64,000 nucleotides of DNA from Glaciihabitans arcticus (GTDB lineage Bacteria; Actinomycetota; Actinomycetes; Actinomycetales; Microbacteriaceae). A program made the position numbers and the translations under genes. Positions 1 to 55,500 of the stretch are shown piece after piece. The stretch covers positions 2,418,001-2,482,000 of the forward strand of contig NZ_SISG01000001.1 of NCBI RefSeq assembly GCF_004310685.1. Reading direction: 5' to 3'. Position 1 is the first letter of the stretch. The number at the start of each line of letters is the position of its first letter. The notes under the pieces were generated by a model. The model was not told where the DNA came from. It was given only the letters and a program-made list of their open reading frames with translations, and did no database searches.

Positions 1-825
1 GTCCACCTCGACCCAGGCACCGCGCGGCAGCACGCGGGCGAGATTCGCGGCAATGCCGCCACCCGTGACGTGGCTGAGCGAGTGGATGGCGCCGGGCAGC
101 TCATCCAGAACAGCGACAAGGGGACCGGTGTACAGGCGGGTCGGCTCGAGCAGGATCTCACCGACCACGCCACCCAGTTCAGCGGAGTGATCGGTGTACC
201 CGATGCCCTTGGAGGCCAGAATGTGCCGGACGAGCGAATAGCCGTTGCTGTGCAGTCCGGATGACGCCATGGCTATGACGATGTCCCCGTTCTGCACCTT
301 CTCGGGGCCGAGCGCGTCGGCCGCCTCGACGAACCCGACGGCGGCACCGGCCACGTCGTAATCGTCGGGGCCGAGCAGCCCGGGGTGCTCAGCGGTCTCG
401 CCGCCGACGAGGGCGGTGCCGGTCGCGGCGCACGCCTCAGCGATGCCACGAACGATGTCTGCGATGCGCTGCGGCACAACCCGGCCGCAGGCGATGTAGT
501 CCGTCATGAACATGGGGCGGGCACCGACCACGATGATGTCGTCGACGACCATGCCGACCAGATCCTGGCCGATGGTGTCGTGCTTGTCGATCGCCTGCGC
601 AATGGCCACCTTCGTGCCGACACCGTCGGTCGACGTGGCGAGCAGCGGGCGCGAGAAATCCTTGAGGAATGAGACGTCGAAGAGCCCGGCGAAGCCTCCG
701 AAACCGCCGACGACTCCGGGGCCGTGGGTGCGGGTGACGGCATCCTTCATCAGGGAAACAGCGAGGTCACCTGCCGCTGTGTCGACGCCGGCATCACGGT
801 AACTGCTGGAGGAAGTCTCGGTCAC
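1..825 (-). CDS. purM: Phosphoribosylformylglycinamidine cyclo-ligase (AIR synthetase), 3' part cut by window edge
   Basis: PurM converts FGAM to AIR with ATP in the fifth step of de novo purine synthesis, in the cytosol. The first 275 codons are visible; the family is usually about 350 residues, so the C-terminus lies left of base 1. The protein opens with the family signature YRDAGVDTAAGD and continues with STDGVGTK, a DDIIVVGARP stretch, GGETAEHPG and SGLHSNGYSLVR, all typical of PurM. I chose the GTG at 825 because a TACTCT hexamer at 832-837 lies exactly 6 nt upstream, as in other leaderless genes of this window. It is divergent from purF, an arrangement that puts two purine steps back to back. 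Confidence 0.96.
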   Translation of the reverse strand, partial: MTETSSSSYRDAGVDTAAGDLAVSLMKDAVTRTHGPGVVGGFGGFAGLFDVSFLKDFSRPLLATSTDGVGTKVAIAQAIDKHDTIGQDLVGMVVDDIIVVGARPMFMTDYIACGRVVPQRIADIVRGIAEACAATGTALVGGETAEHPGLLGPDDYDVAGAAVGFVEAADALGPEKVQNGDIVIAMASSGLHSNGYSLVRHILASKGIGYTDHSAELGGVVGEILLEPTRLYTGPLVAVLDELPGAIHSLSHVTGGGIAANLARVLPRGAWVEVD

Positions 826-38893: not shown

Positions 38894-38899
38894 AGGCTA
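38894..38899 (-). promoter_or_regulatory. -10 element of a leaderless promoter for the RNA methyltransferase
   Basis: Minus strand TAGCCT, 6 nt before the GTG at 38887; it overlaps the stop codon of the upstream giant surface gene. Confidence 0.5.
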
Positions 38900-41800
38900 G
38901 ACCCGTGCGCGACGACGCCGGCGTCCTAGCATCATGAGGCAGAAGCCGAGGATGAGCAGGGCAACGGCCATGACCAGCGCGAGCTGCATTTCGACACCGG
39001 TGATCACGAGGCTGAGGCGCGCACGGGCGGTGAAGGGGTCTCCCCCGTCAACGGTGTGCACAACTCCCGCCGAGTTGGTCAGCGGCACGAGATTGCCCGC
39101 GAGGTTGCGCAGCGGGTTTCCGGTCGGAACTCCTGCGGCGTCCGTCTCGGGCACAACGATGGTGGCGATGACCTCGACGTTGTCCGAGTGGGTCTGGAAG
39201 GCGCCCAGGCGGTAGGTCCCTTCCGAGAAGAACGACTGCCCGGGAGCGAATTCACCCTCCCACGGTCCGCTCGCCACGAAATCGTACGCCGCGGGTCCAC
39301 CGATCGGTGACAGGTCGGCGGTCCAGCCGGCGTCGATCGGGGGGCCGGAGATCGTGACATCCTTCACATCGAGGCTGGTCAGCGTCGTGGTTCCGGTGTT
39401 CGTGATGACCCAGTGGATGGTGCGCTGGGAACCGGGAGCGACCTGTACCGCGTTGGCGGCAGTGTCGGCATCCTGGTCGGCGTTCATGGCCGACTTTGAC
39501 GGCACGATCCAGTTTCCGAGCGCATCCTTGACAGCGGGGTCCGGAGTGTCCCCGTCGTACTTGATGACCTGCACCGCGCCGGTGACGGCGTTGTAGAGGT
39601 CATGGTCGGTGACGGCGATCGACGAGTCGGCGCCTACGGCCGTCACGGTGACATCATCCGCGTGCGGTGCATCCGTGGCATTCACGGTGAGCTGGGCCGT
39701 GCCGTAGATCCAGTCGCCCGGCTCCCAGACCGCCGCTCCGTTGTGGGTGGCCGCCCAGTCCGCGGTGAGCGCCCCGCCGACCAGCGATGCAGTTGCGGTG
39801 GTGGTGTCGGGGAACGTCCAGACGAGAGACTGCACACTGGCCCCAGCCAGCGTCTCATCGGAGAGCGTTACGTCGATCAGGTCCTCGTCGCCCGTGTTCT
39901 GCACGCGGACCACGACGGTGCGGGTCTCGCCGGGCTCGTAGTCCTCGGCGTCGAGCATGGAGTCGGCGTCGTTCGCGATGGTGGTTCCCGTGCCGTCACC
40001 CTTCTCGATGTCGACGAACGGGCCGATGCCGCTCTTCGCGTGGAACGGGTCTTCGTCGTCGACGAGCACGGGGTCGCCCGAGTCGTCGAGCGCGATCGAG
40101 GCCGTGCCCGGCACCACGATGTTTGCGGTGACCGTCACGAGGTCGGCGTGCGATCCGTTGGCGGGCAGCGTGAGCGTGCCGGTGGCGAAGAACGATGCGC
40201 CGGGGGGCAGGATCCCGGGCCACGGCGTGCCGGGCACGAAGGTGTACTGCGCCGGTCCACCGAAGTCGCTGAGGTCTGCCGTCCAGATGCCGGGTACGTC
40301 CGTGACGCCGGTGACGGGGTTGCGCAGGTCGATGTTCGTCAATGACGTCGTGCCAGTGTTGGTGACGACCCAGCGCACGGTCTGCGGGGTGTTGACGGGG
40401 TAAACGACGGCGTGGTCGGTGTCGTTCGCGTCCTGGTCGTCAGACACCAGCGGCTTGGTCGGGATGACCCAGGCACCCGGTCCGCCCACCGCGGGGTCGG
40501 CGACCTCGCCGTCGTACTCGATGACCTGGATGCCTCCGGTGAACGCGTTGTAGTCGTTCGTGTCGGTGACGGGCGTGTTGGTGTTCGTTCCGGTCGCCGT
40601 CACCGTCACGCGGTCGGTGTGCGCCACGGAGCCGAGGCCGACCGTGAGCGTCGCGGTTCCGGTGATGATCTCGCCGGGCTTCCACGATGTCGCCGCGGGG
40701 AGCACAGCCGTCCAGGTGGAGCCGACCAGCACGGCCGGAACTACATCGTTGTTCGGCAGTGTCCAACTGAGGTCACTCACGATCGCGCCGGTGAGTGACA
40801 CATCAGTGAGCGTGATGTCCTCGAGGTCGTCCGTGCCGGTGTTCGTGACGGTGATGTCGATCTGGCGCGATTCGCCCGCCGAGTAAGCCGCCGCGTCGGG
40901 CATGGTGTCGGCCGCGTTGCCCAGCTCGTCACCCTTCACGATCGACACCCTCGCGCTGACGAAGGTCGGGTTCTTGAGCTCGACAGCAGTGACGCCGAGC
41001 GCGCTCATGGTGATCGGGTCACCATTGGCAGAAGTGGTCGCCCCGGTGATCAGGGTCGGGATGCCCCAGCTCGAGCCGGCCGGAAGCCCGCCCGTCGGCG
41101 CGGTCTCCGTGATGGTCACGACAGTGCCCTGGGGGATACCGGGTGAGGTGAAGACGCCGCCGTTGACGATCGAGAACGTGCCGGGCGTCGCCTTGCCCGG
41201 GTAGTCCCAGGTTCCGGTGAAGAGGTGGCCCGCCGTGAGCGTGGAGGCAGCCGGGCCGGTCACGTTCTTCGTGATCGAGAACTGAACGAGCTGGGTCGTC
41301 GGGTTGAGCAGGCCGACCGCAACCGTGGTCGCGTTGCCGATGACGAGGCTTGCGCCGTCGGCTGTCACGGTGACTCCCGAGCCGCTGAAGATCGGGTCGC
41401 CCCAGGTCACGTCGGCGATGTTCGCGGGAGCGTCCTCCTTCACGAGCACGGTCGTGCCGGTCGGCAGCGCCGGGCTCGTGAAAGTCGGAGACGCCTTGGT
41501 GACGGTCGTTGTGGTCCAGGTCGTGCCGCCGTCGGTGGAGTACTGCAGGGTGAACGGGGTGTTCGCGGGAACGGAGGCCGTGGCATCCGCACCCACCGAC
41601 TTGGTGATCGAGAATCGACCGGTCAGCTGGGTCGTCGGGTTCTCCAGCCCGACGGCGACGGTCGTACCGTTGCCGACCGTGAGCCGGGCCACGCCCGCCG
41701 TCGTCGTCACGCCCGCGCCGCTGTAGACCGGGGTGCCCCAGGCGACGTCGACGATGTCGGCCGTGGGGGCGACCTCGCGCACGCGCACCTGGGTTCCGGT

Positions 41801-44800
41801 CGGAACACCGGCGATGGTGAACGTGGGTGCGTTCTTCGAAACGGTGCGGTTGGTCCAGGTGGTCCCGCCGTCGACCGAGTACTGCACGACGAATGAGTAG
41901 CCGTTCGTCACGGACGCCGCACCGGTCCCGGTGACCGCCTTCGTCACCGAGAAGCTGCCGAGCAGCTGGGTCGCCGGGTTCTCGATGCCGACGGCGAGAT
42001 CGGAGTTGGCGACGACCGTGAAGCTTGCGACGCCTGCGGTGGTCGTGACTCCTGTTCCCGAGTAGACGGGGGTGCCCCACTCCACGTCGGCGATGTTCGC
42101 GGTCGGTGCGGTCTCCCTGACGAGCACTGAGCTGCCGGCCGGGAGGCCGGTGACGGTGAAGCTCGGCGAGGCCTTGGAGACCGTTCTCGGAATCCAGGTT
42201 GTGCCGCCGTTGGTCGAGTACTCGACGGTGAAGGCATACGCGTTGCCGACCGAGCCCGCGCCGGTGCCGGTCACCGACTTGGTGACGCTGAAGTCCCCGA
42301 GCTGCTGGGTGATGGGGTTGTTGAGAGCGACGGCGACCAGTGTTCCGTCGCCGGTGACAAAGCTCGTCACTCCGGCCGTGGTGGTCACGCCGGGGCCGCT
42401 GAAGACGGGGGTTCCCCACGTCGCGTTGGGCAGGTTGTTGGTGGAAGACAGCTCCCGAACGAGTACCGTCGTGCCGGTCGGGATTCCGTTCACCGAGACG
42501 GTTGAGTCGCGCGTGACGGGCGCGTCGATCCAGTTGGCGCCGTTGTCGACGGAGTACTGCAAAGCGAAGGACCGTCCGGCGGGTACCAAGGACTCGGCGG
42601 TGCCGGTGACCGTCTTGGCAACGGTGAAGCCGCCGGTCAGCTGGGTGGTCGGGTTCTGAAGAGCGACATCGAGGGATGCCCCCTCGGCCATCGTGAAGGT
42701 CGCGGTGCCGTTGGCGTTGCTCGTGACGCCCGTGCCGGACCAGACGGGCGTGCCCCAGACGACGCTGGCGGGTGCTCCGACGGGAGTCGCCTCGGTGAGG
42801 GTGACGACCGCACCGCGCGGAATCGGGTCGGAGAACGTCGAAGTGCCGCCCTTGGTGACGGTGAGCGTGCCGGATCCCCCGGTGTAGCTGTAGTTGACGG
42901 AGAACGACTGCGCGTTGGCGACAGAGCCAGCGGCAGCACCGGTGACGGACTTGCTGACGCGGAAGGTGCCCGCCTCGTACAGCGTGTTCGTGACGGTGAA
43001 CTCGACTGCGGTGTTGCCAGTGACGAGTGCGGCCGTGGACGGGCTGATCACAACCGTCTTATATGCCGTGGTTCCGGACTCGGCGACGGTGACGAAGGTA
43101 CCGGTGGGCACGGCGACCGGTGAACTCGTGGCGCCCGCAACCAGTGTGATGGTACCCGCCGCTCCTAGGGACAGGGCGTTGCCGCGGAAGTCCGTGGCTG
43201 TCGCGATCATCGTGAACGTCTGCCCAGCGACCGGAACGCCCGGACCGGCCAGGGCCTTCGCAACAGTGAATGATGCGTTCGCCGTGTAGCCCGCATCGAT
43301 GTCGTGGTTGACCCAGCCCGCGGGACCGGCCGAGAAGGTGACGACGCCGGAGGAGGGGTTGGGATCAGAACCGGCGAGCGCCGAGCCACCGGTGCTGGTG
43401 AGTGATGCGTCGGACCAGGCGATCGTCCCGAAGGCTGCCGCGTTGGGACCGGTCAGAGTCAGGTTGCCGGCCGGTTTGACGAAGGTGATCGTATAGTCGC
43501 CGCCGTCCGCAACAAAACCTGTTCCCGCGTAATAGGCCGAGTCGGGGTCGGACGAGAAGTAGTAGCTGCCGTCCGCTGCGGTCGTCACGCTCTTGATGAG
43601 CGTGCCGCCCTTGCGGAGTTCGACCGTTGCGCCTGCGATGGCGGGCTCATCGGCGTCCTGAATGCCGTCCTGGTCGGCGTCGAACCAGACGCGGTTTCCG
43701 ACCTCGATGGGCGCGGCTTCGGCGAGCAGCTGCACAGCTCCGAGTCCACCACCCTTCTGGAACGTTCCGGATGACGTGGACGTGGTCGACCCGCCCGGGT
43801 CGGCCGTGTGCTCGTAGCCCGCGATGTTCGCGCCGTTCGTCGTCGAGTACCAGCTGGTGCCCGCGAGGCGGATTCCGGCGAGAGGGTCGTAGGCGGTGGT
43901 CACGACCTCCTTGGTGCCGCGGATGCCCGCGAGCGCGCCGAGTGCCACCTCCTGGTGGGTGGTGCCGTCGCCGACGTTCATGCGGTCGTTGTAGAACTCG
44001 AATCCGCCAGGTCCCTGCGCCGCGTTCTGCGTCGCGGTGGTGCGTGCTCCGGCAGTTCCGTTGGACTCCAGGGTCCAGGAGTTGCCGTTGTTCGTCGACG
44101 CGATGAGGATGTCGCCGCTGGCGCCCGTCTCGTAGTGGTTGGTCGAGGGGCTCTCTGTAGAGAAGTTGCGGTTGCCACCCTGGATCGAGGTTCGGTCAGA
44201 GAATCCGAGAGTGAGGTAGTTGGATTCGTCGAAGTACAGTCCGCTCAGAACGGGCTGCGGGTACATGTGCCATCCCGCGCCGGCCTCGGAGACGCGGCCC
44301 CCGGTCCACGACCAGGTTCCCGTCCAGGTGTTCCACCGCTGTGACTGAGGGGCGAGAACGTTGCTGTAGATATCGCCCTTGGCATAGCCGAGGGATGCAC
44401 CGTTCAGCACCGTGGTGAAGGTCGAGCCGGAGGAGACGGGGAGAGCGGTGCGCATGACGTTCGCCGTCATGCCTGCTGCGGCCGCGGACTGGCCGGGGTT
44501 GAATCCGGCTACCGTCTCGCCGGTCGACACCCAACCGACGTAGAGCTGGTCGTTGTGAAGAGTGAGAGCCCAGGGGCGCTGGCCGACCGTGAGCCCGAGG
44601 GGAGTCGTGGAGATGACCGTCGGCGAGTTGATCGTCGTGATGTCGATGGCGACGAGCGTCTTGTTGAACAGGTTGATCAGGTAGAGCGTCTTGCCGTCGG
44701 CGCTGACCGTCATCCCGCCGATGCCGACGGTGCCCGCCTTGGCGAACGCGTCGGCGTCGTAGGCGGAGTCCCCAGCGCCCTTCAGCCCGCGCGCGTCGTT

Positions 44801-45721
44801 GGACTGCACCGTGCCGAGCGGGATGTTGAGGGGCGCGGCGGTGATGTCCTTCCACGCGCTCACGGTGGACCCGGTCGAGACAGTGCCCGTCGAGGTCAGC
44901 ACATTGCTGATGCGGTAGATACCGCCGATGCCGAGCGTGCCGAGACCCGAGTGACGCTTGTAGGTCGCCGAGACGAAGATGTCGTTCGCGCTCGGGCGGT
45001 ATGCGGTGCCCCAGACGGAGCCGACCTGGCCGAACGTGGCCAGGGTGGTACGGCCCGCGAAGGCTGTGGCGCCGGTCGAGGTCGACCCGTTCGCGGGCTG
45101 GTTGAGCGAGTACGGGGCAGCGACGACGGCAGGATTGGCGCTCGCATCGGCGGAGGCGGGCGTGCCGGTGTAGATGGGCTGGCCGGAGTACTGGATCGCT
45201 GTGACGAGCGGGGCGTTCGACTGGGAGTAGGTCTCGGGCACATTGGCACCGAAGTTGACGTTGCTGGCACCCAGAGACACGAACTGCACGTTCGAACCAT
45301 TGCGCGTGCCGGCCGTGGCGTTGTACATGGGTGACGGCGTGAATCCGGCGGGAAGTCCCGTGAATTCCACACGGAGGGTGCCGGGGAGAGCACCGGTGGT
45401 GCCGGTGATTGTCCACTGACCGAGCGCAGCGGACGACGCGGACGACGTCGTGGTGCCGAAGACTGCATTGGCCGAATTGTATGCCGTGATTGTCACGCCG
45501 CCGATGCCGGTGTCGACTGCGACCCCACTGTGCGCAGCGACGGTCGTGTCGAACCGGCCGTTCGCGTTGAAGTCACGGAAGACGGTGCCCGAGACGGAGC
45601 CGGTGGCTGCCTGCGCTGCCTGCGGAGCTGCCGAAAGGGTCAGGCCGGAGACGACGACCATTGTCGCGAGCGTCGCCGCGACTACTCGGAAACTGCGTGC
45701 GCGCTTAAGTCCAGCCAGCAT
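38897..45721 (-). CDS. Giant surface protein with SdrD-B-like, DUF5979 and A-B-A-B repeat domains
   Basis: The 2274-residue protein has a Sec signal (about 1-38), then an SdrD-B-like domain (VSGTVFRDFNANGRFD). A roughly 450-residue region follows with propeller-like phrases (IGGMTVSADGKTLYLINLFN). A second SdrD-B domain comes at about 672-810 (VGNRVWFDADQDGIQDADEP), then seven DUF5979-like units of about 110 residues (812-1585) and two alternating pairs of about 150-residue DUF11-like domains (about 1590-2210). The C-terminus is LVITG, a hydrophobic helix and RRRRRARV, a cell-wall-sorting layout without the LPxTG proline. It is probably a wall-anchored stalk or adhesin. GGAG lies 10 nt before the ATG. 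No sortase gene is in the window. Confidence 0.9.
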   Translation of the reverse strand: MLAGLKRARSFRVVAATLATMVVVSGLTLSAAPQAAQAATGSVSGTVFRDFNANGRFDTTVAAHSGVAVDTGIGGVTITAYNSANAVFGTTTSSASSAALGQWTITGTTGALPGTLRVEFTGLPAGFTPSPMYNATAGTRNGSNVQFVSLGASNVNFGANVPETYSQSNAPLVTAIQYSGQPIYTGTPASADASANPAVVAAPYSLNQPANGSTSTGATAFAGRTTLATFGQVGSVWGTAYRPSANDIFVSATYKRHSGLGTLGIGGIYRISNVLTSTGTVSTGSTVSAWKDITAAPLNIPLGTVQSNDARGLKGAGDSAYDADAFAKAGTVGIGGMTVSADGKTLYLINLFNKTLVAIDITTINSPTVISTTPLGLTVGQRPWALTLHNDQLYVGWVSTGETVAGFNPGQSAAAAGMTANVMRTALPVSSGSTFTTVLNGASLGYAKGDIYSNVLAPQSQRWNTWTGTWSWTGGRVSEAGAGWHMYPQPVLSGLYFDESNYLTLGFSDRTSIQGGNRNFSTESPSTNHYETGASGDILIASTNNGNSWTLESNGTAGARTTATQNAAQGPGGFEFYNDRMNVGDGTTHQEVALGALAGIRGTKEVVTTAYDPLAGIRLAGTSWYSTTNGANIAGYEHTADPGGSTTSTSSGTFQKGGGLGAVQLLAEAAPIEVGNRVWFDADQDGIQDADEPAIAGATVELRKGGTLIKSVTTAADGSYYFSSDPDSAYYAGTGFVADGGDYTITFVKPAGNLTLTGPNAAAFGTIAWSDASLTSTGGSALAGSDPNPSSGVVTFSAGPAGWVNHDIDAGYTANASFTVAKALAGPGVPVAGQTFTMIATATDFRGNALSLGAAGTITLVAGATSSPVAVPTGTFVTVAESGTTAYKTVVISPSTAALVTGNTAVEFTVTNTLYEAGTFRVSKSVTGAAAGSVANAQSFSVNYSYTGGSGTLTVTKGGTSTFSDPIPRGAVVTLTEATPVGAPASVVWGTPVWSGTGVTSNANGTATFTMAEGASLDVALQNPTTQLTGGFTVAKTVTGTAESLVPAGRSFALQYSVDNGANWIDAPVTRDSTVSVNGIPTGTTVLVRELSSTNNLPNATWGTPVFSGPGVTTTAGVTSFVTGDGTLVAVALNNPITQQLGDFSVTKSVTGTGAGSVGNAYAFTVEYSTNGGTTWIPRTVSKASPSFTVTGLPAGSSVLVRETAPTANIADVEWGTPVYSGTGVTTTAGVASFTVVANSDLAVGIENPATQLLGSFSVTKAVTGTGAASVTNGYSFVVQYSVDGGTTWTNRTVSKNAPTFTIAGVPTGTQVRVREVAPTADIVDVAWGTPVYSGAGVTTTAGVARLTVGNGTTVAVGLENPTTQLTGRFSITKSVGADATASVPANTPFTLQYSTDGGTTWTTTTVTKASPTFTSPALPTGTTVLVKEDAPANIADVTWGDPIFSGSGVTVTADGASLVIGNATTVAVGLLNPTTQLVQFSITKNVTGPAASTLTAGHLFTGTWDYPGKATPGTFSIVNGGVFTSPGIPQGTVVTITETAPTGGLPAGSSWGIPTLITGATTSANGDPITMSALGVTAVELKNPTFVSARVSIVKGDELGNAADTMPDAAAYSAGESRQIDITVTNTGTDDLEDITLTDVSLTGAIVSDLSWTLPNNDVVPAVLVGSTWTAVLPAATSWKPGEIITGTATLTVGLGSVAHTDRVTVTATGTNTNTPVTDTNDYNAFTGGIQVIEYDGEVADPAVGGPGAWVIPTKPLVSDDQDANDTDHAVVYPVNTPQTVRWVVTNTGTTSLTNIDLRNPVTGVTDVPGIWTADLSDFGGPAQYTFVPGTPWPGILPPGASFFATGTLTLPANGSHADLVTVTANIVVPGTASIALDDSGDPVLVDDEDPFHAKSGIGPFVDIEKGDGTGTTIANDADSMLDAEDYEPGETRTVVVRVQNTGDEDLIDVTLSDETLAGASVQSLVWTFPDTTTATASLVGGALTADWAATHNGAAVWEPGDWIYGTAQLTVNATDAPHADDVTVTAVGADSSIAVTDHDLYNAVTGAVQVIKYDGDTPDPAVKDALGNWIVPSKSAMNADQDADTAANAVQVAPGSQRTIHWVITNTGTTTLTSLDVKDVTISGPPIDAGWTADLSPIGGPAAYDFVASGPWEGEFAPGQSFFSEGTYRLGAFQTHSDNVEVIATIVVPETDAAGVPTGNPLRNLAGNLVPLTNSAGVVHTVDGGDPFTARARLSLVITGVEMQLALVMAVALLILGFCLMMLGRRRRRARV
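40966..43284 (-). repeat. Seven tandem DUF5979-like repeats in the 2274-residue surface protein
   Basis: Units of about 330 bp recur with phrases such as FSVTKSVTGTGAGSV, YSVDGGTTW, VRETAPTANIADVEWGTPVY and VGLENPTTQL. The central four are closest to each other; the first and last are most diverged. Confidence 0.8.
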
Positions 45722-45853
45722 GACTGATGTGCTCCATCGGGTAAGTACGCTCGATGCAACTTCTGCTAGGTGATCGCTCGGGCGGAATGTGGTGTGCCGG
45801 CTGTCTGGTGACGGGGTTGTGGCAGACGGAGGGCTCTTTCAGAATAGTCGTTA

Positions 45854-45872
45854 GTGTGAGGGCGTCTCACAC
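45854..45872. promoter_or_regulatory. Perfect inverted repeat between two divergent surface-gene units
   Basis: GTGTGAG-ggcgt-CTCACAC, perfect over 7 bp with a 5-nt centre, lies between the 2274-residue surface protein gene and the beta-helix/DyP operon, 133 nt and 59 nt from their starts. An operator is more likely than a terminator because both flanking genes are transcribed away from it. Confidence 0.5.
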
Positions 45873-45919
45873 CCTATTAAGGGGGCCACCATCAAAGGGA
45901 TCGGCCCGGGCACCCGCTT

Positions 45920-45925
45920 TATACT
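45920..45925 (+). promoter_or_regulatory. -10 element of a leaderless promoter for the beta-helix/DyP operon
   Basis: TATACT, the best -10 match in the window, 6 nt before the ATG at 45932. Confidence 0.6.
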
Positions 45926-45931
45926 CGGGTC

Positions 45932-47254
45932 ATGGGGGCACGCGCACATCAGGTGATAAGCAGCTCCATGATTCTCATCGCCGTGCTTGTGACATCGTCG
46001 CTCTTGAGCGCGTGCTCAACCCAGCCAGGGCAATCGGGCCAGGCGCTGGTCGAGGTTCCCGCCGACGCCCCGACTATTTCGGCGGCACTCGAGCTCGTGT
46101 CCCCGGGCGGGCTGATTCTGGTCTCGCCGGGCGAGTACCCCGAATCCGTGACGATCGATGTGGCCGACGTCACACTGCGTGGCACCGATAGAAACGCGGT
46201 CATCATCGACGGCGAGGGGCTGCGCGCCAATGGTGTGCAGGTGGTCGCCACGGGCGTGCGCGTACAGAACCTGACGGTGCGCAATCACACCTTCAATGGC
46301 GTGCTAGTCACCGGCATGCGCGATGCCAATGGCGCCCAAGCACACAACCTCGACGGCTACGAGAAGCTCGATCCCGAGAAGTTCCCGCCCCTCGAGCGGT
46401 TCGAGGTGAGCAATGTCACAGCCAGCAACAACGGGCTCTACGGCATCTACGCGTTCAATTCACGGCACGGAGTGATCCGTGACAACTACGCATCGGGGTC
46501 GGCGGACTCGGGCTTCTACGTCGGCCAGTGCGCTGGCTGCGACATCCTCGTCACCAACAATGTGGCCGAGAACAACGCGATCGGCTACGAGAACGCCAAC
46601 GCCTCGGACTCGGTGCTGATCGCCGGAAATCGGTTCAGCAGCAACCGAGTGGGCCTCACGCTGTTGTCCTGGTACCAGGAGGCATACCTCCCGCAGAAGT
46701 CGGCGACGGTGGTGGGCAACCTCATCGCCGACAACACCTCGGCCGACTCACCCGCCCAAGCGCTCGGCGCGTTCGGCATAGGGGTGGGCCTGTCGGGCGC
46801 CAACACGAACACCCTCGAGCGCAATCTCATCGCCGGCAACGCCTCGACCGGCGTGCAGGTGACGAATACCGAAGACCTCGCCTCGACCGGCAACCGGCTC
46901 GTCGACAATTCCTTTGTGGATAACGGCATCGATCTGGCCAACCTGTCGGCAGAGCGATCCCCGTCGGTGGGAACCTGCGTTGAAGGCAGCGGGCCAGGCA
47001 CGGTGCTTCCTGCCGGGTTCGGCAGCGACTGCGCCGGGACGAGCGTCGGAGTCTCGGCAGACAGGCTGCCCGCACTCGATGTGCCCGCTGGCCTGTCCTT
47101 CCTGAAGGTTTCGCCGGGGCCGGACCAGCCCGATATGACCGGGTCGCTCCGAAACGTGCCCCGTCCCCTTCCCGACACCGTCGCCATGCCGAACCCCGGC
47201 TCCTTCGCTCTTCCCGACCGCACTCTCCTCGCGGACCGGGCGGTCGCCCGGTGA
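45932..47254 (+). CDS. Right-handed parallel beta-helix lipoprotein
   Basis: The 440-residue product has a signal peptide with lipobox LLSAC (Cys28). A pectate-lyase/NosD-like beta-helix follows: APTISAALELVSPGGLILVS and PGEYPESVTI, then short coils such as NNGLYGIYAFNSRHGVIRDN, SADSGFYVGQCAGCDILVTN and NNVAENNAIGYENANASDSV. The pattern resembles the TIGR03805-type beta-helix family, whose members elsewhere neighbour redox proteins. A CxxC (GQCAGCD) sits mid-helix. No catalytic residues of pectate lyases are recognised, so it may bind a polymer or metal. The last about 100 residues are Pro-rich. The ATG at 45932 fits the TATACT spacing; its stop overlaps the next gene by 4 nt. Confidence 0.88.
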   Translation: MGARAHQVISSSMILIAVLVTSSLLSACSTQPGQSGQALVEVPADAPTISAALELVSPGGLILVSPGEYPESVTIDVADVTLRGTDRNAVIIDGEGLRANGVQVVATGVRVQNLTVRNHTFNGVLVTGMRDANGAQAHNLDGYEKLDPEKFPPLERFEVSNVTASNNGLYGIYAFNSRHGVIRDNYASGSADSGFYVGQCAGCDILVTNNVAENNAIGYENANASDSVLIAGNRFSSNRVGLTLLSWYQEAYLPQKSATVVGNLIADNTSADSPAQALGAFGIGVGLSGANTNTLERNLIAGNASTGVQVTNTEDLASTGNRLVDNSFVDNGIDLANLSAERSPSVGTCVEGSGPGTVLPAGFGSDCAGTSVGVSADRLPALDVPAGLSFLKVSPGPDQPDMTGSLRNVPRPLPDTVAMPNPGSFALPDRTLLADRAVAR

Positions 47255-47949
47255 GATCCCTGGCCATCGGCATCGCGGTGCTTCTCCTGCTGACGGCTTG
47301 CGCGCCCGCCGAGCCCACCGGCCCACTCGCGTTGACCGGTGAGCAGTCCGAGCGACTCGCCATCGCGCGCTTCCGCAACTTCGATGCCGGCGTACGCGCG
47401 ATAGATGTGACAGTCCCCGCCGACAGTGGCGAACTCGAGCTTGTGGGCTGGTTCGACTACGCGGGTGGCGTCGGCTACGCGGCGGTGTCCTCGGCGAACA
47501 AACCGGCCGGGCTGATCTGGTGGACCCACGAGCTCGTCGCGACACGCTCCATCCCGGTCGATTCTGCGCTCCTCCCCCTGCCCGCCGACGGCTGGGAATC
47601 CGGCCCGCTCGACCCGTCGAGCACCTCCCTTGCGAACGCCGTCGCCGTCGTTGCGAGTCTCGGCTCAGATCGCCCCGAGAACCCGCAGCTGCTGGCGCAG
47701 ACCGACGCGGCCTGGCTGCGCACCGACGAGGTGGACGGCGTGGACGTCGACGTCTTCATCGGCCCGTCGGGAGACTCCGCGACCTCCGCCCCCGAGGACT
47801 CGGCGCTGCGCGCCCGGTACTGGCTGGACGACTCGGGGCTGCTTCTGACGTTCCAGTTCCCCGCGGGCTCGTCAGGCAAGTGGATGACCGCGCTCTTCGG
47901 CCCCGCGAGCGGCATCGTCATCCCGAGCACAGTGCCGGGCACCCCGTGA
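47251..47949 (+). CDS. Lipoprotein of unknown function in the DyP operon
   Basis: The 232-residue product has a signal peptide with lipobox LLTAC (Cys17). The exported part reads as a beta-rich domain: RAIDVTVPADSGELELVGWF, GGVGYAAVSSANKPAGLIWW, AWLRTDEVDGVDVDVFIGP and LLLTFQFPAGSSGKWM. It is reminiscent of LolA/LprG-like folds in which a half-barrel carries a hydrophobic ligand, but I cannot assign a family. Both its start and stop overlap neighbours by 4 nt (GTGA at 47251 and 47946), so its amount is tied to the beta-helix protein and the peroxidase. Confidence 0.85.
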   Translation: MRSLAIGIAVLLLLTACAPAEPTGPLALTGEQSERLAIARFRNFDAGVRAIDVTVPADSGELELVGWFDYAGGVGYAAVSSANKPAGLIWWTHELVATRSIPVDSALLPLPADGWESGPLDPSSTSLANAVAVVASLGSDRPENPQLLAQTDAAWLRTDEVDGVDVDVFIGPSGDSATSAPEDSALRARYWLDDSGLLLTFQFPAGSSGKWMTALFGPASGIVIPSTVPGTP

Positions 47950-49088
47950 CCGAGTCCGGGCCGCGCAACGAGCCGACGTTCCGCCCCTCTCGGCGTGGGC
48001 TGCTTTCGGCGGCGCTCGGTGGCGCCGCGGGGCTCGCTCTCGGCGCGACCGGAGGCGTCGCACTCACGCGAACCGACACCCCGGCCCCGGCTTCGACTCC
48101 GGCTCCCACGGAGGTCGTGCCCGTGCGCGGCGAGCATCAGGCTGGTGTGCACCTGCCCGCCTCCCCACAGCAGTTCGGCGCGCTGCTGGTGCTCGACACG
48201 GCCGCCACGGACACCGGATGGCTGGCCGCGCTCGGCGCACGCATCGTCGCGCTCGGCTCGGACGATGCCCTGCTGCCGGACGGCGCAGGCGACCTCACGG
48301 TGACGGTCGGCATCGGACCACGCCTTGTGCCCGATGGGCTGCCGGGCTCGACCGACCTGCCGGGCTTCGCGGACGACAACGAAATCGACCCGGGCGCACG
48401 CGGCGGCGACGTGCTGCTCGCCGCCTACTCGAGCGACCCGACCGTGCTCGCCGCCGTGCTCGCTGACCTCGCCCTGCTGGTGCCGGGCGCGGTCACGCGC
48501 TGGCAGCAGTTCGTCTTCCGCGGAAAGGGCAGCGGCACCAAGGCCCGTAACCCGCTGGGCTTTATGGATGGCATTGTCGTTCCCCACACCTCGGCCGAAT
48601 TCGCCGACGGGGTTTGGATTCCCGACGGTCCCGCCGCGGGTGGCAGCATCCTCGTGATCCGCCGACTCCGGCTGGACACGTCAGCCTTCCGCGCTCTCGA
48701 GGTCGGCGAGCGGGAGGCGGTCATCGGCCGCAGGCTCAGCGACGGCGCCCCGCTCTCGGGCGGCGCACCCGACGACCAGGTCGACCTGCGCGCGAAGACC
48801 CCGGAGGGCGAGCTGCTGGTGCCGGCGCGCTCCCACGCGCGAGCCGCACATCCCTCATTCACCGGCTCGTCGCTGATGTTCCGCCGCAGTTACTCATTCG
48901 AAAACGACGGAGAGACCGGGCTCGTTTTTATGTCCTTCCAGAACGAGCTGCGCACCTTCGTGGTCACGCAGCAGCGACTGGATGAGGTCGACGCGCTCAG
49001 GACCTTCAGCACACCGACGGCCAGTGCGACGTTCCTCGTGCTGCCGGGTTTCGACGACGAGCGCCCGCTCGGATCGAGCCTGCTCTAG
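47946..49088 (+). CDS. Tat-exported DyP-type peroxidase
   Basis: The 380-residue product has a twin-arginine signal (SRRGLLSAALGG, residues 16-27) then a Thr/Pro-rich linker. It carries the DyP signature NPLGFMDG (residues 202-209, catalytic Asp208), the proximal heme His297 in SHARAAHP, and FRRSYSF. It should be a heme peroxidase using H2O2, folded with heme in the cytosol and exported by Tat; EfeB of iron-uptake systems is a relative, but no efeU or efeO is here. It is the third gene of an overlapping operon with two lipoproteins. Its TAG stop shares CTAG with the convergent lipoprotein stop. Confidence 0.94.
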   Translation: MTESGPRNEPTFRPSRRGLLSAALGGAAGLALGATGGVALTRTDTPAPASTPAPTEVVPVRGEHQAGVHLPASPQQFGALLVLDTAATDTGWLAALGARIVALGSDDALLPDGAGDLTVTVGIGPRLVPDGLPGSTDLPGFADDNEIDPGARGGDVLLAAYSSDPTVLAAVLADLALLVPGAVTRWQQFVFRGKGSGTKARNPLGFMDGIVVPHTSAEFADGVWIPDGPAAGGSILVIRRLRLDTSAFRALEVGEREAVIGRRLSDGAPLSGGAPDDQVDLRAKTPEGELLVPARSHARAAHPSFTGSSLMFRRSYSFENDGETGLVFMSFQNELRTFVVTQQRLDEVDALRTFSTPTASATFLVLPGFDDERPLGSSLL

Positions 49089-49528
49089 GCCACGTAGCGT
49101 TCGACCCGCAGAACGCAGCTGAGGTCGTCTTCGGCGACGGGAATCTCGGTGTCCCAGGTCTCCTCTTCGCCGGCCGCCAGGTCATCGACGTCCACCTGCA
49201 CGAGCGCGCGGGTGTCGTTGGCACCGTTGAGCAGCGAGACGTAGATGCGGTAGCTGGCGGCCTCTTCGGTCGGGTTCGCGACCGTGCCGCTCACCTTCCA
49301 CGCGTCGCCGTCGCGAACGCAGTCGCCCATGGTGTTGTCGGCGAGCGCGCCGACGAGGTCCTCGCCGGAACCCGGGGTGTCATCGATGTCGGTGATGCCG
49401 GGGGTCTGCTCGGCGTCCGCCGAGGAGGTCGGCTTGGGTTCGGGTGAGCCGGCCGTGCAGCCCGCGAGCGATGCCGCGAGGAGGGCAGCCGCAAGGGCGG
49501 TCACCAGGGTTCGTGAGCTCACGATCAT
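49085..49528 (-). CDS. Small lipoprotein translationally coupled to the giant repeat protein
   Basis: The 147-residue product has a signal peptide and lipobox SLAGC (Cys24), a Thr/Ser/Pro/Asp-rich linker, and a compact beta domain (WKVSGTVANPTEEAASYRIY, VDVDDLAAGEEETWDTEI, CVLRVERYV) with two cysteines. The domain resembles the FxLYD/DUF3426-like fold that reads as a modified Ig domain; function unknown. Its ATG overlaps the stop of the giant gene (ATGA, 49525-49528), so it is made from the same mRNA. A longer in-frame extension upstream is antisense-free but lies in the giant gene and is not homologous. Confidence 0.85.
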   Translation of the reverse strand: MIVSSRTLVTALAAALLAASLAGCTAGSPEPKPTSSADAEQTPGITDIDDTPGSGEDLVGALADNTMGDCVRDGDAWKVSGTVANPTEEAASYRIYVSLLNGANDTRALVQVDVDDLAAGEEETWDTEIPVAEDDLSCVLRVERYVA

Positions 49529-52500
49529 GAGGCTGCCTTTCGCTGTCTTCTTCGGGCAATGAGTATCAATCCTAGGCCGGAGAGCAGCAGCAGCAGGCTC
49601 GCGCCCAACGGATACTCGGCATCCGTACCGGTCTTGATCAGGCCGCCCGGGTCGATCGCGCGCACCGGAAGCTGCACCGCGCCGACCGCGTTCGCGAGCA
49701 CCGGGTCGCCGTTGTTGACGTCGATGCTGGTGACCGAGGCCGTCTCCGTGAGCCGCTGGCCCTCCATCGCGGCGGTGATCGTGTACGTCGCCGTTGCGGT
49801 CACCGATTCGCCCGGCAGCAGCACTCCGACCGCTCCCGGCCATGCGCCGTAGACGATGGTGCTGAGCCCGGTGCGCGGGTCGGTGATCTCGACGTTGTTC
49901 AGGGGCTCGGTGCCGTTGTTGCGCACCACGTAGCTGACGACGACGGTGTCTCCCGCGAATCCGGCCTGACCGGCCCGAACCTTCGGGCTCACCGTGATGC
50001 CGATGTCTGCGACGCGCGGCACGGCGAACGTGTCTGTGTCGGCGACCGGCGTGAGCGCGGATCCTCCGGGAGCGTTGGCGTTCGCCGTTGCCGTGTTGTC
50101 GATGGTGCCCGAGGCGACATCCGCAGCCGTGATCGTATAGCGCGCGGTGACTACGAGCAGTCCGTTCGGGCGAAGGGTGCCCGGCGTTCCCGGCCAGACG
50201 TAGGTCAGGGCGGAGAGACCCGGCTTGACGTCGCTCACCGTGACGCCGGTGAGTGTCACGTTGCCGGTGTTGCGCACCTCGATGCGGTAGTCCAGCGTCG
50301 CGCCCTGCTGGGCGAAGCTCGCCGCACTGCTCGTCTTGGTGACGGTCATGGCGGGTGCCGCAGTGATGAGGGTCTCGCCGGCTTCGGCATCGGTCACGTT
50401 GGTGCCGGTCGGCGGCGTGCCGGTCGTCGTCGCGGTGGACGCGATCCGACCCGCATCGACGTCAGCCTGGCTGAGGATGTAGGTCGCCGTGGCAATGACC
50501 ACACCGTTCGGCGCGAGCACACCCGCGGCTCCGGGGAACGCGTAGCTGATCGCCGAAGCGGGCACCTGCGGGTCGGCCACCGTGACGCCGGTCAGCGTGT
50601 GGGTGCCCGTGTTGGTGACCTCCCAGCGGAACAGCACTGCGTCGCCGGCGCGACCGGTCGCCGCCGCTGCGAGCAACTGCGTCTTGTCGATGTTGATGGA
50701 TGACGCTCCGCCTGCGGTCGGGATCACCGACGGCGTCGAGGTACCGGACACCGCTGCGGCGCCGCGCGACGGGGTCGCGGAGGCCGAGGCCACATTGCGC
50801 ACCTCACCGCCGTCGAAGTCGCTCTGGCGCACCGTGTAGGTCGCCGCGGCGGTCGCCGACTGTCCGGGCGGCACAACACCGGCGGTCGCGGTCGGCCAGG
50901 TGTAGCCGCCGATCGCGCTGAGGCCGGGCTTGGTGTCGCTGAACACCGGGTCGGTCAGCGTCAGGGATCCGGTGTTGGTCGCGGTGAACGTGTAGTCGAT
51001 GATCGAGCCGACGACGGGTGCACCGCCGCCGCGCACAACGCCCTCCTTGAGCACGGTCATGCTCGAGGCGCCGGCAGCGAGCGGAACGCTCGTCTGCGGG
51101 GAGGTGTCGCTCACGTTCAGCGGTCCGCGGGCCGCCTCGCCCGTCGCGGTCGTGACGTTGCGCACCACGCCGAGGTCGACGTCGGCCTGGCTCACGGTAC
51201 GGGTCGCGGTGACCTGCGCGGACTCGCCCGCGAGCAGCCTGCCCGGGTTGACCGGGTCGGGCCAGGTGTAGACGAAGTTGCCGAGACCGGCGACGGTGTT
51301 GGTCATGGCGACGTTCTCGACGCGCACGTTTCCGTCGTTGCGCAGAGTGAACGTGTAGTTCATGGTGTTGCCGAGCACACCGGTCGCGCCCGCGGCGAGC
51401 GCCGCCGTGTGGCTGGTGAAGAGCTCACCCCGTGCGGCCGAGGTGGAGATGTCGAACGGCGCCGAGGGTGCGTTGATGATGACGTCGTCGGGGGTGGTAC
51501 CGAAAGCGGTCGCCGTGTTGCGGATGGTGCCGTTATCCACATCTGCGCGCGTCACGGTGTAGCGGGCCGTACCGTGCGCGACGCCGCCGGGCGCGAGGAT
51601 GTTGGACGTCGATGGGAAGGTCAGCACGGGTGTCGAGACACCGGGCAGTGCATCGGTGACCTCGACGAGGCGCAGCGTCACGTTGCCGGTGTTGGTCACG
51701 TCGAACTCGTACTGGATGACCGAGCCCGCGTCGCCGGTTCCGGTCAGGAGCTGGCCTGACTTCACGACCGCGATGCCCGGGTCGTGTGCCTCGAGGTCGA
51801 TACTCACGGTTCCGGACTGCACCGGGCCGACCGCGCCTGCAGGGCTCGTCGCCGTGGCGGTTGCGACGTTGTCGACGGAGCCGCGGTCCACGTCCTCCTG
51901 CTGCACCGTGTAGCTGAGCTCGTAGGTGACGCTGTCACCGGGCAGCAGCACGCCGTCTGCGTCGGGCCAGTCGGTGCTCGTCACCACGATGCCCTGGAGC
52001 GCGTCACCAAGGGTGACGCCCGTGAGTGTGGTGTTGCCGGTGTTGGTCAGCACGACTTCGTAGCTGAGTGCGTCACCGAGACCAAGTTGTGCCGGAATGG
52101 CCGGCGCGCCGGTCTTGGAGATCGCGAGCAGCGGGCTTCCCATCAGCTGCACGGTCGCCGGTGCTGTGGCGGATGCCGCGGCGCCCGTCGGCGGCAGGCC
52201 ACGACCCGTGGCGACGCTCGACACGGATCCCGCGTCGATGTCGGCCTGGGTCAGCACCTGCGTGCGGATGACCGTCGCGGTGTCGGCAGGGCCCAGGACG
52301 CCGGGCGTTCCGCTGGACCAGCTGTAGTCACCGGCCGGCAGCGCGCCGATGCCGTCGGTGATGCTCGAACCGCTCAGGGTCACGTTGCCGGTGTTGGTGA
52401 ACACGTAGGTCCACTCGACCGTGTCGCCGGCCCGGGCGGTCGCGCCGCCGATGCGCACGCCGTTATTGGTGACGGCGACGGTGGGGGCAGCGACCTCGGT

Positions 52501-55500
52501 CGCGACGGTCGATGTGTTCGACGTTGCGGAGACCGCGAGACCGCGCACGGGTGTCGCGCTCACGGTCGCCGTGTTGATCACATTGCCCGCGTTGACGTCG
52601 GCCTGGCTGATGTCGTAGATCGCGGTCGCGGCGACGGTGACGTTCGGGGCGAGCACGCGCGACGCTCCCGGCCACTGGATGACCGGCTGGCCTCCGGCGG
52701 GCAGCTTCGGGTCGTTCACGGCGATCGACCCGATCGTGACGTTTCCGGTGTTCCGGATCAGGAAGCTGTAGGCGATGGTGTCGTTCGCCCCCGCGCTGCC
52801 GGTTGCGACGCCCGTCTTCACGACACTCACCGCGGGCTGCGCCTGCACGGTGTTGATCCGAACCGTGTTGGAGGTCGCGGGGATCTCCGTCCCGCCCAGC
52901 GTGAAGGCGCGTACTGTCGCGGTGTTCTCCATAAAGCCGTTGTCGATGTCAACCTGGCGCAGCTGGTACGAGGCCACCCCCGTCGCGCTCTCGCCCGGAG
53001 CCACGGTGCCTTCGTCGGCGGGGTTCGGCCAGGTGATGACCGGGTCGGTAAGCCCCTCGAGAGCATCGGTCAGTTCGCCGTCGTACAGCGTGACGTTTCC
53101 GGTGTTGGTGGGGACGAGCTTGTAGTCGACCCAGTCACCGACCTGGCCGATGCCACCCGCGCGCAGCACGCCGGTCTTGAACGCGGTCAGGTCAGGCGAC
53201 TGCACAACGGGCACGTTGACGGTCGCGGTCTGGAAGAACTCGACGCCGGTGGGCGGCGTCGCGTAGCCGCGCACCGAGTTGCTCACGGTGGCCGCGTCGA
53301 TCTCCGGTTGGGTGAGCGGGTAGGTCGCCGTGCCGGTGATCGTCTCACCGGGCTGGAGCGTGCCGCCGGGGAAGCCCGCGCGATCGTACTGGATCGTGCT
53401 CACGCCGGCCTTCTGGTCGACGAAGCGCACGTTGGTGAGGGTCTGGTTGCCGTCGTTCCTCAGCGAGAACGCGAAGTTCACGAGCTCGCCCACGCGTCCG
53501 GTTGAGCCCGCGGCGAGCGCTCCGGTCTTGGTGACGGTGATCACGGGGTTGGCGGTCGCGGTGGTGACGGTCGCCACGGCGTCCTGACTCGAGGTGCGCA
53601 CGTTCTTCGGCGTGAGGCCGGAGGCGCTGGCCGTGTTGATCACGGAGCCCGCGTTCACATCGGCCTGGCGAATGGCGAACGTCGCAGTAGCGGTGGCAAC
53701 GGCGTTCGGCGCGAGTACTCCCTCGTCGCCGGGCCAGCGCACGTTCGAGACCTCGACGCCCTGCAGGGAGTCGGAGAGCACGATGCCGTGCAGGGTCACC
53801 GTTCCGGTATTGGTGATCGTGAAGTCGTAGCTGACGACGGCGCCGACGCTGGCCACGGCGGGCGGCGTCGCGACCTTGGTCACAACGAGCTCCGGGTCTT
53901 CGGGCGCGAGGGTCGTCGTCGCGATCGGCGAGCTGCCGCTCACGCGCGGCCCGACCGGCGGCTTGCCGCTGGCCGTCGCCTGGTTGAGGATCTGCCCGCT
54001 GTCCACGTCGGACTGCTTGACCGTGTACTCGGCCGTTGCGACGATCGTGGATCCGGGTTCGATGACGCCGACCGGTCCGCCGTTCCACTGGTAGCTGACC
54101 GCGGAGATGTCGGCGAGTCCGTCGATGACTTCGAGCAGGGTCAGGGTCACGTTGCCGGTGTTGCGAATGGTGAAGGTGTAGTCGACGATGTCGCCGAGCC
54201 CTCCACCCGCGCGTGGCACACCCGCCTTAGCGACGGTGAGCGCCGGGCTCGCCGGGATGTCGATGCCTGCCGTCGTCGAGCGCGTGACATCCACACCCCG
54301 CGGCGGCGTGCCGGAGCCGGTGGCGGCGCTCTCGACGCGGCCCGCGTTCAGCTGGGCGAGCGTGAGCGCGGACGTGGCCGATGCCTGCACCGACTCACCC
54401 GGCTTGAGGGTGAAGGCCGTGCCGTCCCAGTCGTCGTAGCTGATGGCCGAGATACCGCCGAGCTCATCCACGAGCTGCGCGCCGGTGAGCGTCACGTTGC
54501 CGGTGTTGGTGAGTAAATAGCTCCAGTTGACGGTGCTGCCGACGTCCTGGCGGCCGGCGGTGGCAAAGGCCGCGGTCTTGGTGATCGCGAGGTTCGGGCC
54601 GATCGCCTGGGTCGGAATCGTCGACACGTCGTCGTCGGTCACCAGGGTGTTCGTGGGCGACGGCGAGAGACCGGTGGCGGTCACGGGGTTGGTCACGGCG
54701 CCGGCGTTCACGTCGTCGAGGGTGATGACATAAGTTCCGGATGCCCGTGCGAACGTTCCCGGAGCGATCTCGCCCGGGCGGGCCGGGTTCGGCCAGGTCA
54801 CGTCGGCGAGCACCACGCCGGTGACGGCGTCGACGAGGGTGACCCCGTGCAGGGTCACGTTGCCGGGGTTGCTGATGCGGAACTCGTAGTCGATGACGTC
54901 GCCGACGCCTGCGGTGCCGCGCGGCGTACCGACGGCGGTCGCCACAATGACCGGGGCCTCGAGCACGGTCGGAACGACGACCGTGTTGGAGTCGGCGGAG
55001 ACCAGCACACCCTTCGGGGTCTTCGCCGAGACGTGCGCGGTGTTCGTGACGCGTCCGGTGTCGACGTCGGACTGCTTGATCGTGTACTCGGCGACACCGG
55101 TGACGAAAGTGCCGGGGGGCAGCACACGAGGCTGGCCGGCGATCGGCCAGGTGATCACGGGGGTGCCGAGCCCGATCATCGGGTCGACGAGCAGGCCGTC
55201 GTACATGGTGACGTTTCCGTCGTTGGTGATGCGCAGCGTGTACTCGATGACATCGCCGACAGCGCCGGTCCCGTTGTTCAGGATGCGCGCCGACTTCACG
55301 GGGCTGAGCTTCGTGATCGGCGGGATGGTCAGCACAACCGTCACGGCCTGCGTGAGCGCGGCACCCGTGGGCGGCTGCGCGCTGCCCGTGACCGTACTGC
55401 TCACCGATCCGTTGTCGACGTTGGCCTGGGTCAGCAGGTACGGCACCGTCACGGTGACCGTCTCACCGGGAAGCAGCACGCCGTCCGAGGCTGGCCAGGT

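Follow-up and report, generated by a model that had tools for sequence, protein, structure and literature searches.

The window analysed here, a stretch of 64,000 nucleotides of the Glaciihabitans arcticus genome (contig NZ_SISG01000001.1, positions 2,418,001 to 2,482,000), carries three overlapping genes encoding a beta-helix lipoprotein, a second, small lipoprotein and a DyP-type heme peroxidase, and, divergently oriented to them, a gene encoding a giant wall-anchored surface protein with a predicted propeller domain. The four genes co-occur and their neighbourhood is often kept while the gene order changes, which indicates that their products work together as a four-component cell-surface module. 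Judging by their signals, three of the proteins leave the cytoplasm or are tethered to the membrane, and the fourth is anchored in the wall; they would thus come together on the outside of the membrane. It is tentatively proposed, with somewhat less than even confidence, that the DyP and the two lipoproteins bring about an oxidative maturation or tailoring of the surface protein that carries the propeller, or of its ligand. The computed results presented below concern gene content and co-occurrence, the shared location of genes whose order is shuffled, the conservation of catalytic and Cys residues, and the prediction of folds and sorting signals. Genomes (G) and loci (L) are cited by number where they have to be told apart.

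Organization of the locus

The features of the locus are listed below, with positions given in the window.

45932-47254, plus strand: beta-helix lipoprotein gene, 440 aa, ATG start at 45932 (open reading frame, Pfam, alignment of relatives)
47251-47949, plus strand: middle small lipoprotein gene, 232 aa, GTG start; LppX/LprG/LolA-like modelled fold, DRPxN motif
47946-49088, plus strand: DyP heme peroxidase gene, 380 aa, GTG start; RR (twin-arginine) signal, GFMDG (205-209), His297 and Arg313
38897-45721, minus strand: giant cell-wall surface protein gene, 2274 aa, divergent from the operon (open reading frame, Pfam, model of the N-terminal domain, C-terminus)
43712-45601, minus strand: N-terminal domain P0004 (SdrD_B-like part plus propeller), marker of the surface-protein family (AlphaFold2, fold search)
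45722-45931, no strand: divergent intergenic region between the surface-protein gene and the operon, with TATACT at 45920-45925

An initial annotation of this DNA had described three genes joined by 4-nt overlaps, with all products placed outside the membrane. Reading of the open reading frames confirmed a 4-nt GTGA overlap at both the helix/lipoprotein and the lipoprotein/DyP junction, and the export signals agreed with the placement (lipobox LSAC in the beta-helix protein, lipobox LTAC in the middle protein and the RR signal in the DyP). The unit is larger than these three genes, the divergent gene at 38897-45721 being a fourth partner that had been missed.

A leaderless promoter had also been suggested. 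The TATACT sequence does lie at 45920-45925, six bases 5' of the ATG at 45932, and a sigma-70 scan of the region upstream of the operon revealed no two-hexamer promoter; the leaderless promoter is a candidate that is as yet unproven. A simple DtxR/IdeR-like pattern, which is a weak test, had no match upstream of the beta-helix gene in the window and the 80 loci surveyed below.

Co-occurrence of the four genes in genome samples

Strong matches to the beta-helix protein were found in eight of 150 genomes of the same family (a ninth, in G136 at 6e-4, was discarded). The propeller domain P0004 was present in seven of the 150, exactly those with an intact helix gene. A strongly related DyP (at least 276 bits) was encoded in seven of the eight helix genomes, the eighth being G156 with its broken helix copy. 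The Fisher test, which ignores kinship, gave p = 2.7e-11 by genome and 1.6e-9 by genus, with G156 counted as a helix genome. Seven of eight family genomes read, including G004 from the genus of the window, had the order helix, lipoprotein, DyP. G096, an Agreia, is without the lipoprotein, and its helix and DyP genes overlap directly by ATGA. When neighbours were clustered, each of the eight genomes proved to have an additional gene close to the operon, encoding the giant exported protein; it adjoined the set in seven and lay about 6 kb off in G096. The contigs of G004, G043, G079, G096 and G151 are those of L075, L081, L055, L058 and L089, so this sample and the locus survey described below overlap.

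The same association was observed in 246 genomes of the class, in which the top candidates were scored per genome (seven for the helix, four for the propeller, 11 for the lipoprotein and seven for the DyP), so that weak second copies may escape. The helix was found in 21 genomes. The propeller domain was confined to 20 of these, and the lipoprotein was present in 24, namely all 21 plus G259, G272 and G356. The helix genome without the propeller domain was G353, where the lipoprotein gene lies 465 bases from the contig start and a contig break may explain the gap. All 21 helix genomes encoded a matching DyP, with scores of 362-567 bits in 20 of them and 253 bits in G300, where the gene is adjacent to the set; other DyPs reached at most 261 bits among the 104 genomes passing E 1e-60. 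Fisher tests gave p = 1.7e-28 by genome and 1.1e-8 by genus, kinship again being ignored. A single family with two genera (f35) accounts for most of these genomes, with 17 of 21 for the helix and 16 of 20 for the propeller, and counted by genus the figure was 5 of 104. A search of 346 phylum genomes located the propeller head in four, of which two lie outside the class. One of these two, G637, has a beta-helix gene (3e-92) directly after the head at the contig end.

Co-location with shuffled gene order

The beta-helix alignment was searched against species genomes and the best 80 of 117 loci, each up to about 21 kb, were surveyed. They originated from Microbacteriaceae, Cellulomonadaceae, Promicromonosporaceae, Ruaniaceae, Jiangellaceae, Nocardioidaceae, Propionibacteriaceae, Micromonosporaceae, Pseudonocardiaceae and Streptomycetaceae. 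The DyP gene was located in 67 of these loci, the lipoprotein gene in 64 and the surface-protein gene in 49 (44 by the N-terminal domain; L079, L098, L101, L104 and L118 were matched by the SdrD_B part only). All four genes occurred in one locus in 43 cases, in 15 orders or orientations, or in 38 loci and 13 orders if the N-terminal domain was required. The gene order is shuffled and yet the genes stay together, which argues for a joint function.

A check of co-occurrence and order had been advised in the initial annotation, which named three genes lying apart in most genomes as the outcome that would speak against it. Helix, lipoprotein and DyP were found together in 60 of the 80 loci fetched with the helix, which exceeds chance, so that broad co-occurrence stood; the order varied, as described above, and the middle gene was absent in some relatives.

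With the rest of the genome counted along with the locus, the propeller domain was detected for 74 of the 80 loci, the remaining ones being L074, L108, L118, L125, L132 and L133. The genome-wide search behind this count covered 36 genomes, those of the 31 unmatched loci and of the five with the SdrD_B part only; 32 matched, G429 and G434 by SdrD_B only, and 30 were counted. A similar search for the DyP covered 15 genomes, 13 of them without an in-locus DyP. A DyP of 447-548 bits was encoded elsewhere in nine of the 13, none was found for L103, and only weaker ones for L120, L129 and L133. Beyond the four, neighbour families were limited to at most 15 of the 80 loci among the top 30 clusters listed, which were based on crude gene calls (the caller recovered the lipoprotein in 32 loci and the DyP in 48).

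The giant surface protein and its propeller head

The surface protein is composed of a signal peptide, the SdrD_B-like and propeller N-terminal domain, SdrD_B and seven DUF5979 stretches, and it ends with LVITG, a membrane segment and RRRRR. With its SdrD_B domain (PF17210, 55.7 bits, cut-off 29.7) and C-terminal sorting signal it belongs to the sortase-anchored SdrD_B class. Among 32 relatives uncut by a contig or locus end, the 70 C-terminal residues contained the pattern [LI]xxTG in 22.

The N-terminal 600 residues, ahead of the SdrD_B domain at 673, gave no Pfam match. The AlphaFold2 model of P0004 (predicted local distance difference test, pLDDT, 84.9) was most similar to the six-bladed propellers of nidogen, LRP4 and LRP6 (Z 23.8-23.3), with the best match to nidogen (1npe; Z 23.8, 2.7 Å over 257 residues). 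The SdrD_B-like start of the domain was backed by SdrD rows in Foldseek; the Foldseek template modelling (TM) scores of the propeller, 0.09-0.33 by query length, were used only together with the second aligner. No His, Cys or Met was invariant in 25 heads, His549 being present in 21 of them, and a copper-oxidase reading of the propeller was rejected. Tyr229, Tyr354 and Trp426 of the head (P0004 numbering) are conserved. In Microbacterium sp. GCS4 (L117, 11464-21053), two or three tandem propeller-protein matches lie beside one set.

The beta-helix lipoprotein

The NosD-like beta-helix with a CxxC reported initially was recovered, both by Pfam (PF05048 NosD, 2e-14, 54 bits with a cut-off of 23.6; PF13229, 1.2e-17, supporting a right-handed beta-helix) and as C200-x-x-C203. 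Two NCBIfam models were missed: that of the NosD subfamily (TIGR04247) with 58.5 bits vs a cut-off of 300, and the parallel beta-helix model TIGR03805 with 79.7 bits vs 141.5, three relatives scoring 60.8-83.5.

The residues Q199, C200 and C203 (QCxxC) were kept in 80 of 80 aligned proteins and C349 in 79; the former count applies to selected close relatives, the loci having been picked by two helix peptides, one of which lies just before QCxxC. Exactly four Cys residues were present in the counted region of 77 of the 80 proteins, which is compatible with either two disulfides or a thiol site. A lipobox-like pattern was found in 76 of the 80 helices.

The beta-helix gene of G156 is split (L050, 8912-10214), probably decaying, and lies between tuf-like and rpsJ-like genes, as judged by eye. 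This genome has 2.1 Mb, and the 19 kb around the split gene are without the lipoprotein or DyP.

The middle lipoprotein

The middle protein, which starts with the lipobox LTAC, had been left unassigned in the initial annotation. At the sequence level this stood, as the protein matched no Pfam or NCBIfam family, and no LppX/LprG/LolA family was among the matches of seven members at Pfam E <= 1 (HMMER filters drop most matches above about 0.1). The picture changed with the AlphaFold2 model (seven sequences, mean pLDDT 76.7). Its best structural matches were the mycobacterial LppX, LprF and LprG (Z 12.5 to 11.3), followed by LolA, RseB/MucB and ependymin-like proteins; for LppX (2byo), Z was 12.5 with a root-mean-square deviation of 4.0 Å over 156 residues. 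Foldseek gave E values of about 1e-5 with modest TM (LprG, E 9.4e-6, TM 0.45) and ranked VioE first. The protein thus models as an LppX/LprG/LolA-type fold, at the superfamily level only.

Four residues, D140, R141, P142 and N144 (DRPxN), were each kept in 63 of 65 rows. A lipobox-like pattern was present in 52 of 64 lipoproteins; among the misses listed, some have an N-terminal membrane segment and others a lipobox beyond the strict pattern.

The DyP peroxidase

The DyP carries an RR signal and belongs to the DyP-type superfamily (TIGR01413, 136.5 bits, cut-off 100.5); a sequence comparison with solved structures likewise placed it nearest to DyP peroxidases (5jxu, 7e-32). The residues G205, D208, G209, H297 and R313 were identical in all 67 relatives and R314 in 66; they include the catalytic Asp of GxxDG, proximal His and distal Arg. 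With a loose pattern, an RR dipeptide near the N-terminus was found in all 67 DyPs. The EfeB equivalog model TIGR01412 was missed (171.3 bits vs 428), four relatives scoring 145-232 bits. A single origin of the DyPs of the module is not claimed, since a quick tree needed three label changes and placed L128, L130, L131 and L134 with other DyPs.

Some further DyP genes were noted. The genome of the window encodes a second DyP (G000:C1:1662461-1663711) that matches Dyp_perox_N at 2.1e-37, the DyP of the window being below the cut-off of that model (12.2 vs 20.4 bits); a wider profile match of the second protein crosses one in-frame TGA. Shortened DyP matches of about 277 residues lie beside the helix in eight Lentzea loci (L102, L106, L108-L110, L113, L115 and L123), covering model residues 151-390 in the two genomes searched, and in these genomes the propeller protein is encoded elsewhere, except for L108, where none was found. 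L120 has a weak DyP match only (6e-10) beside the helix, and the propeller protein elsewhere in the genome. A module-like DyP of 387 bits is encoded in G089 (L053, 9599-11026), with no helix or lipoprotein in the surrounding 19 kb.

Other genes near the set

Convergently to the DyP gene, a 148-aa lipoprotein-like protein with no Pfam match is encoded at 49085-49531 on the minus strand. On the same strand, at 49525-63984 and running past the window, lies a gene for another giant surface protein, which may reach 6077 aa, with the first GTG at window-equivalent 67758. Positions 62000-63984 encode DUF7507/DUF11 repeats, and the protein ends with LIKTG, a membrane segment and RRRQRK; in its N-terminal part it groups with a protein encoded next to the G041 set. 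Sortase genes are located next to the set or the propeller protein in L048 (11659-14246), L149 (5771-8496), L073, L085, L087 and L089, in most cases together with a gene for a GramPos_pilinD1-type pilin.

Proposed mechanism and its weaknesses

The extracytoplasmic redox module proposed initially was retained in that the three families are conserved as an exported unit, and was changed by the addition of the surface-protein partner. In the mechanism considered here, the lipoproteins (the CxxC beta-helix and the LppX/LolA-like carrier) would serve as holders or escorts of the surface protein or of a hydrophobic ligand that it binds. The DyP would oxidise the surface protein with H2O2 at the point of its exit from the membrane, and the surface protein would thereby be matured or cross-linked before or after wall anchoring. 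That the substrate would be the surface protein rather than a small ligand is what we infer, as are the kind of modification and what each of the lipoproteins does. In its most specific form, the set would provide a dedicated post-export oxidative maturation for a family of sortase-anchored surface proteins, the DyP with its two lipoprotein helpers placing a covalent oxidative modification on one cognate wall protein, e.g., a link through Tyr or Trp within the propeller head or close to it. Among the papers listed, none described such a way of building surface proteins; so precise a scheme seems rather doubtful.

Several observations weigh against oxidative maturation of the surface protein. 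What was computed is association, and oxidation of the surface protein itself goes a step beyond it. The lipoprotein gene is not in the locus in L056-L059, L124, L126 and L134, although the genome of L126 has one beside a propeller protein (L150). Twelve surface-protein regions were fetched outside helix loci, eight of which, three Lentzea regions among them, had no helix, lipoprotein or DyP in the stretch retrieved and four had one of them; in G469, outside the class, the propeller protein is alone with no partners nearby. Conversely, a module-like DyP occurs without the helix in G089, and the adjacent DyP scored only 178-255 bits in 17 of 67 loci, which is the range of ordinary DyPs, four of these grouping with other DyPs in the quick tree. 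Cross-linking of the repeats through dityrosine on a large scale is disfavoured, since Tyr is not enriched in the surface protein of the window (1-8 per full 200-residue block).

The helix is also separable from the rest. In the 12 genomes of the genus g139 (f35) it is separated from the other genes by more than 1 Mb or by a contig boundary. The lipoprotein, DyP and surface-protein genes are together in nine of these genomes but not in G353, G286 or G240, where the DyP gene begins a different contig. G286 has two surface-protein genes, one beside the DyP gene and one beside the lipoprotein gene, whose products are 59% identical over 1550 columns. This arrangement looked like proof that the surface protein is the hub of the set, but the argument is weakened by an internally deleted lipoprotein remnant beside the DyP gene (L146, 7237-7446), whose pieces share 88 and 92% identity with the intact copy elsewhere in the genome and which points to a duplicated locus with partial loss. 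This finding and the low-scoring adjacent DyPs slightly reduced the confidence in oxidative maturation.

Alternative explanations

The co-occurrence could also be explained by oxidation of a ligand. The propeller head would then be a receptor, not a substrate, capturing a polymer or an aromatic or lipid-like ligand outside the wall, the lipoproteins would receive it and the DyP would oxidise it. Right-handed beta-helices and propellers are common binding folds, and the entries of the folds matched by the model of the middle protein hold hydrophobic ligands (LprG with phosphatidylinositol mannoside or triacylglyceride, LolA with fatty acid), which would fit such a role. DyPs are described in review passages as taking bulky substrates (PMC8197335). 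However, no transporter, hydrolase or catabolic family was found in most of the 80 loci among the clusters listed; among the biggest of the remaining clusters, none of which exceeds 15 loci, are regulators and parts of ABC transporters that look like large paralogous families or genus synteny. Ligand oxidation is considered doubtful.

Copper or iron trafficking, similar to that of DtpA/Sco/ECuC-GlxA or EfeUOB, is unlikely. The CxxC beta-helix would be a NosD-related metal chaperone and the DyP would oxidise Cu(I) or Fe(II), in line with the PF05048 match, QCxxC in 80 of 80 helices and the oxidation of Cu+ and Fe2+ ascribed to DtpA and EfeB in the passages of the review (PMC8197335). On the other hand, the EfeB equivalog and NosD subfamily models were missed (171/428 and 58.5/300 bits), the 25 heads have no invariant His, Cys or Met, and the four Cys of 77 of the 80 beta-helices also fit two disulfides. 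The initial annotation had considered that the lipoproteins might hold a metal or heme-derived ligand, an idea that has found no support so far, as judged by two weak tests: no iron or copper gene was among the recurrent neighbour clusters listed (top 30, crude gene calls), and the simple pattern revealed no DtxR-like site.

An accessory role in sortase-dependent pili, with the propeller protein as a tip or stalk adhesin and the peroxidase set serving pilus assembly, is very unlikely. A sortase, mostly with a GramPos_pilinD1 pilin, is encoded near the set in G145, L073, L085, L087 and L089 (G151), and G435 has the order propeller protein, pilin, sortase; however, sortases related to those of G145 and G435, used as queries, were found in only 4 of the 80 loci and are not general neighbours, so that a pilus-only reading was rejected. 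Least probable of all is a general extracytoplasmic peroxide defence or dye/lignin oxidation, with the other genes as neighbours without a joint role, which fits DyP family membership but not the co-occurrence of the propeller protein, the 15 orders that keep the set together, or the class genomes with other DyPs, which, bar the 21 helix genomes, have no propeller domain at E <= 1e-40.

Comparison with known systems

Oxidative maturation of the surface protein resembles most closely the pairing of DtpA and GlxA. In Streptomyces lividans, DtpA, a DyP and substrate of the twin-arginine translocation (Tat) pathway, is needed for the maturation of the extracytoplasmic oxidase GlxA, and no strong physical interaction between the two was seen (PMC4736821). 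Such links between a DyP and its partner may thus be indirect. As in DtpA/GlxA/Sco/ECuC, a Tat-exported DyP would be linked with helpers and with the maturation of a single extracytoplasmic protein, a link that is genetic in that system and predicted from the genes here. In contrast, the partner found here is a wall-anchored SdrD_B/propeller giant, in whose head no His, Cys or Met is invariant, and Sco and the copper chaperone are replaced as helpers by a beta-helix and an LppX/LolA-like lipoprotein. Sco, ECuC and GlxA, as well as EfeU and EfeO, were not among the recurrent neighbour clusters listed, no model search having been aimed at them.

EfeB of EfeUOB (TIGR01412) is likewise a DyP with an RR signal, and the DyP of the window matches the EfeB model over its whole length but is far under the equivalog cut-off. 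The NosD and TIGR03805 families share the exported right-handed beta-helix, while the protein of the window is under both NCBIfam cut-offs; TIGR03805 proteins pair with diheme cytochromes. The predicted fold and lipoprotein anchor of the middle protein are similar to those of mycobacterial LppX/LprG/LprF and of LolA, from which it differs by the lack of a sequence-level family match and by other partner genes. SdrD-type sortase-anchored adhesins share the SdrD_B domains and a C-terminal LxxTG-type sorting signal, but the protein of the window has in addition a nidogen/LRP-like propeller head and the peroxidase set nearby.

The roles of DyPs named in the review passages include iron uptake, Streptomyces life-cycle switching, encapsulin cargo, and lignin and anthraquinone degradation; the physiological substrates of many bacterial DyPs are described as unsettled, and these passages mention no surface-protein partner (PMC8197335). 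No description of the four-gene set was found in the open-licence PubMed Central literature among the matches listed (titles and starts of abstracts). For this DyP group, the data single out one protein as a partner that can be tested, the wall-anchored propeller protein, which co-occurs with it across ten named actinobacterial families. If the peroxidase modifies that protein, DyPs would have a defined role in the building of the cell surface, and oxidative tailoring would join the known ways of strengthening Gram-positive surface proteins.

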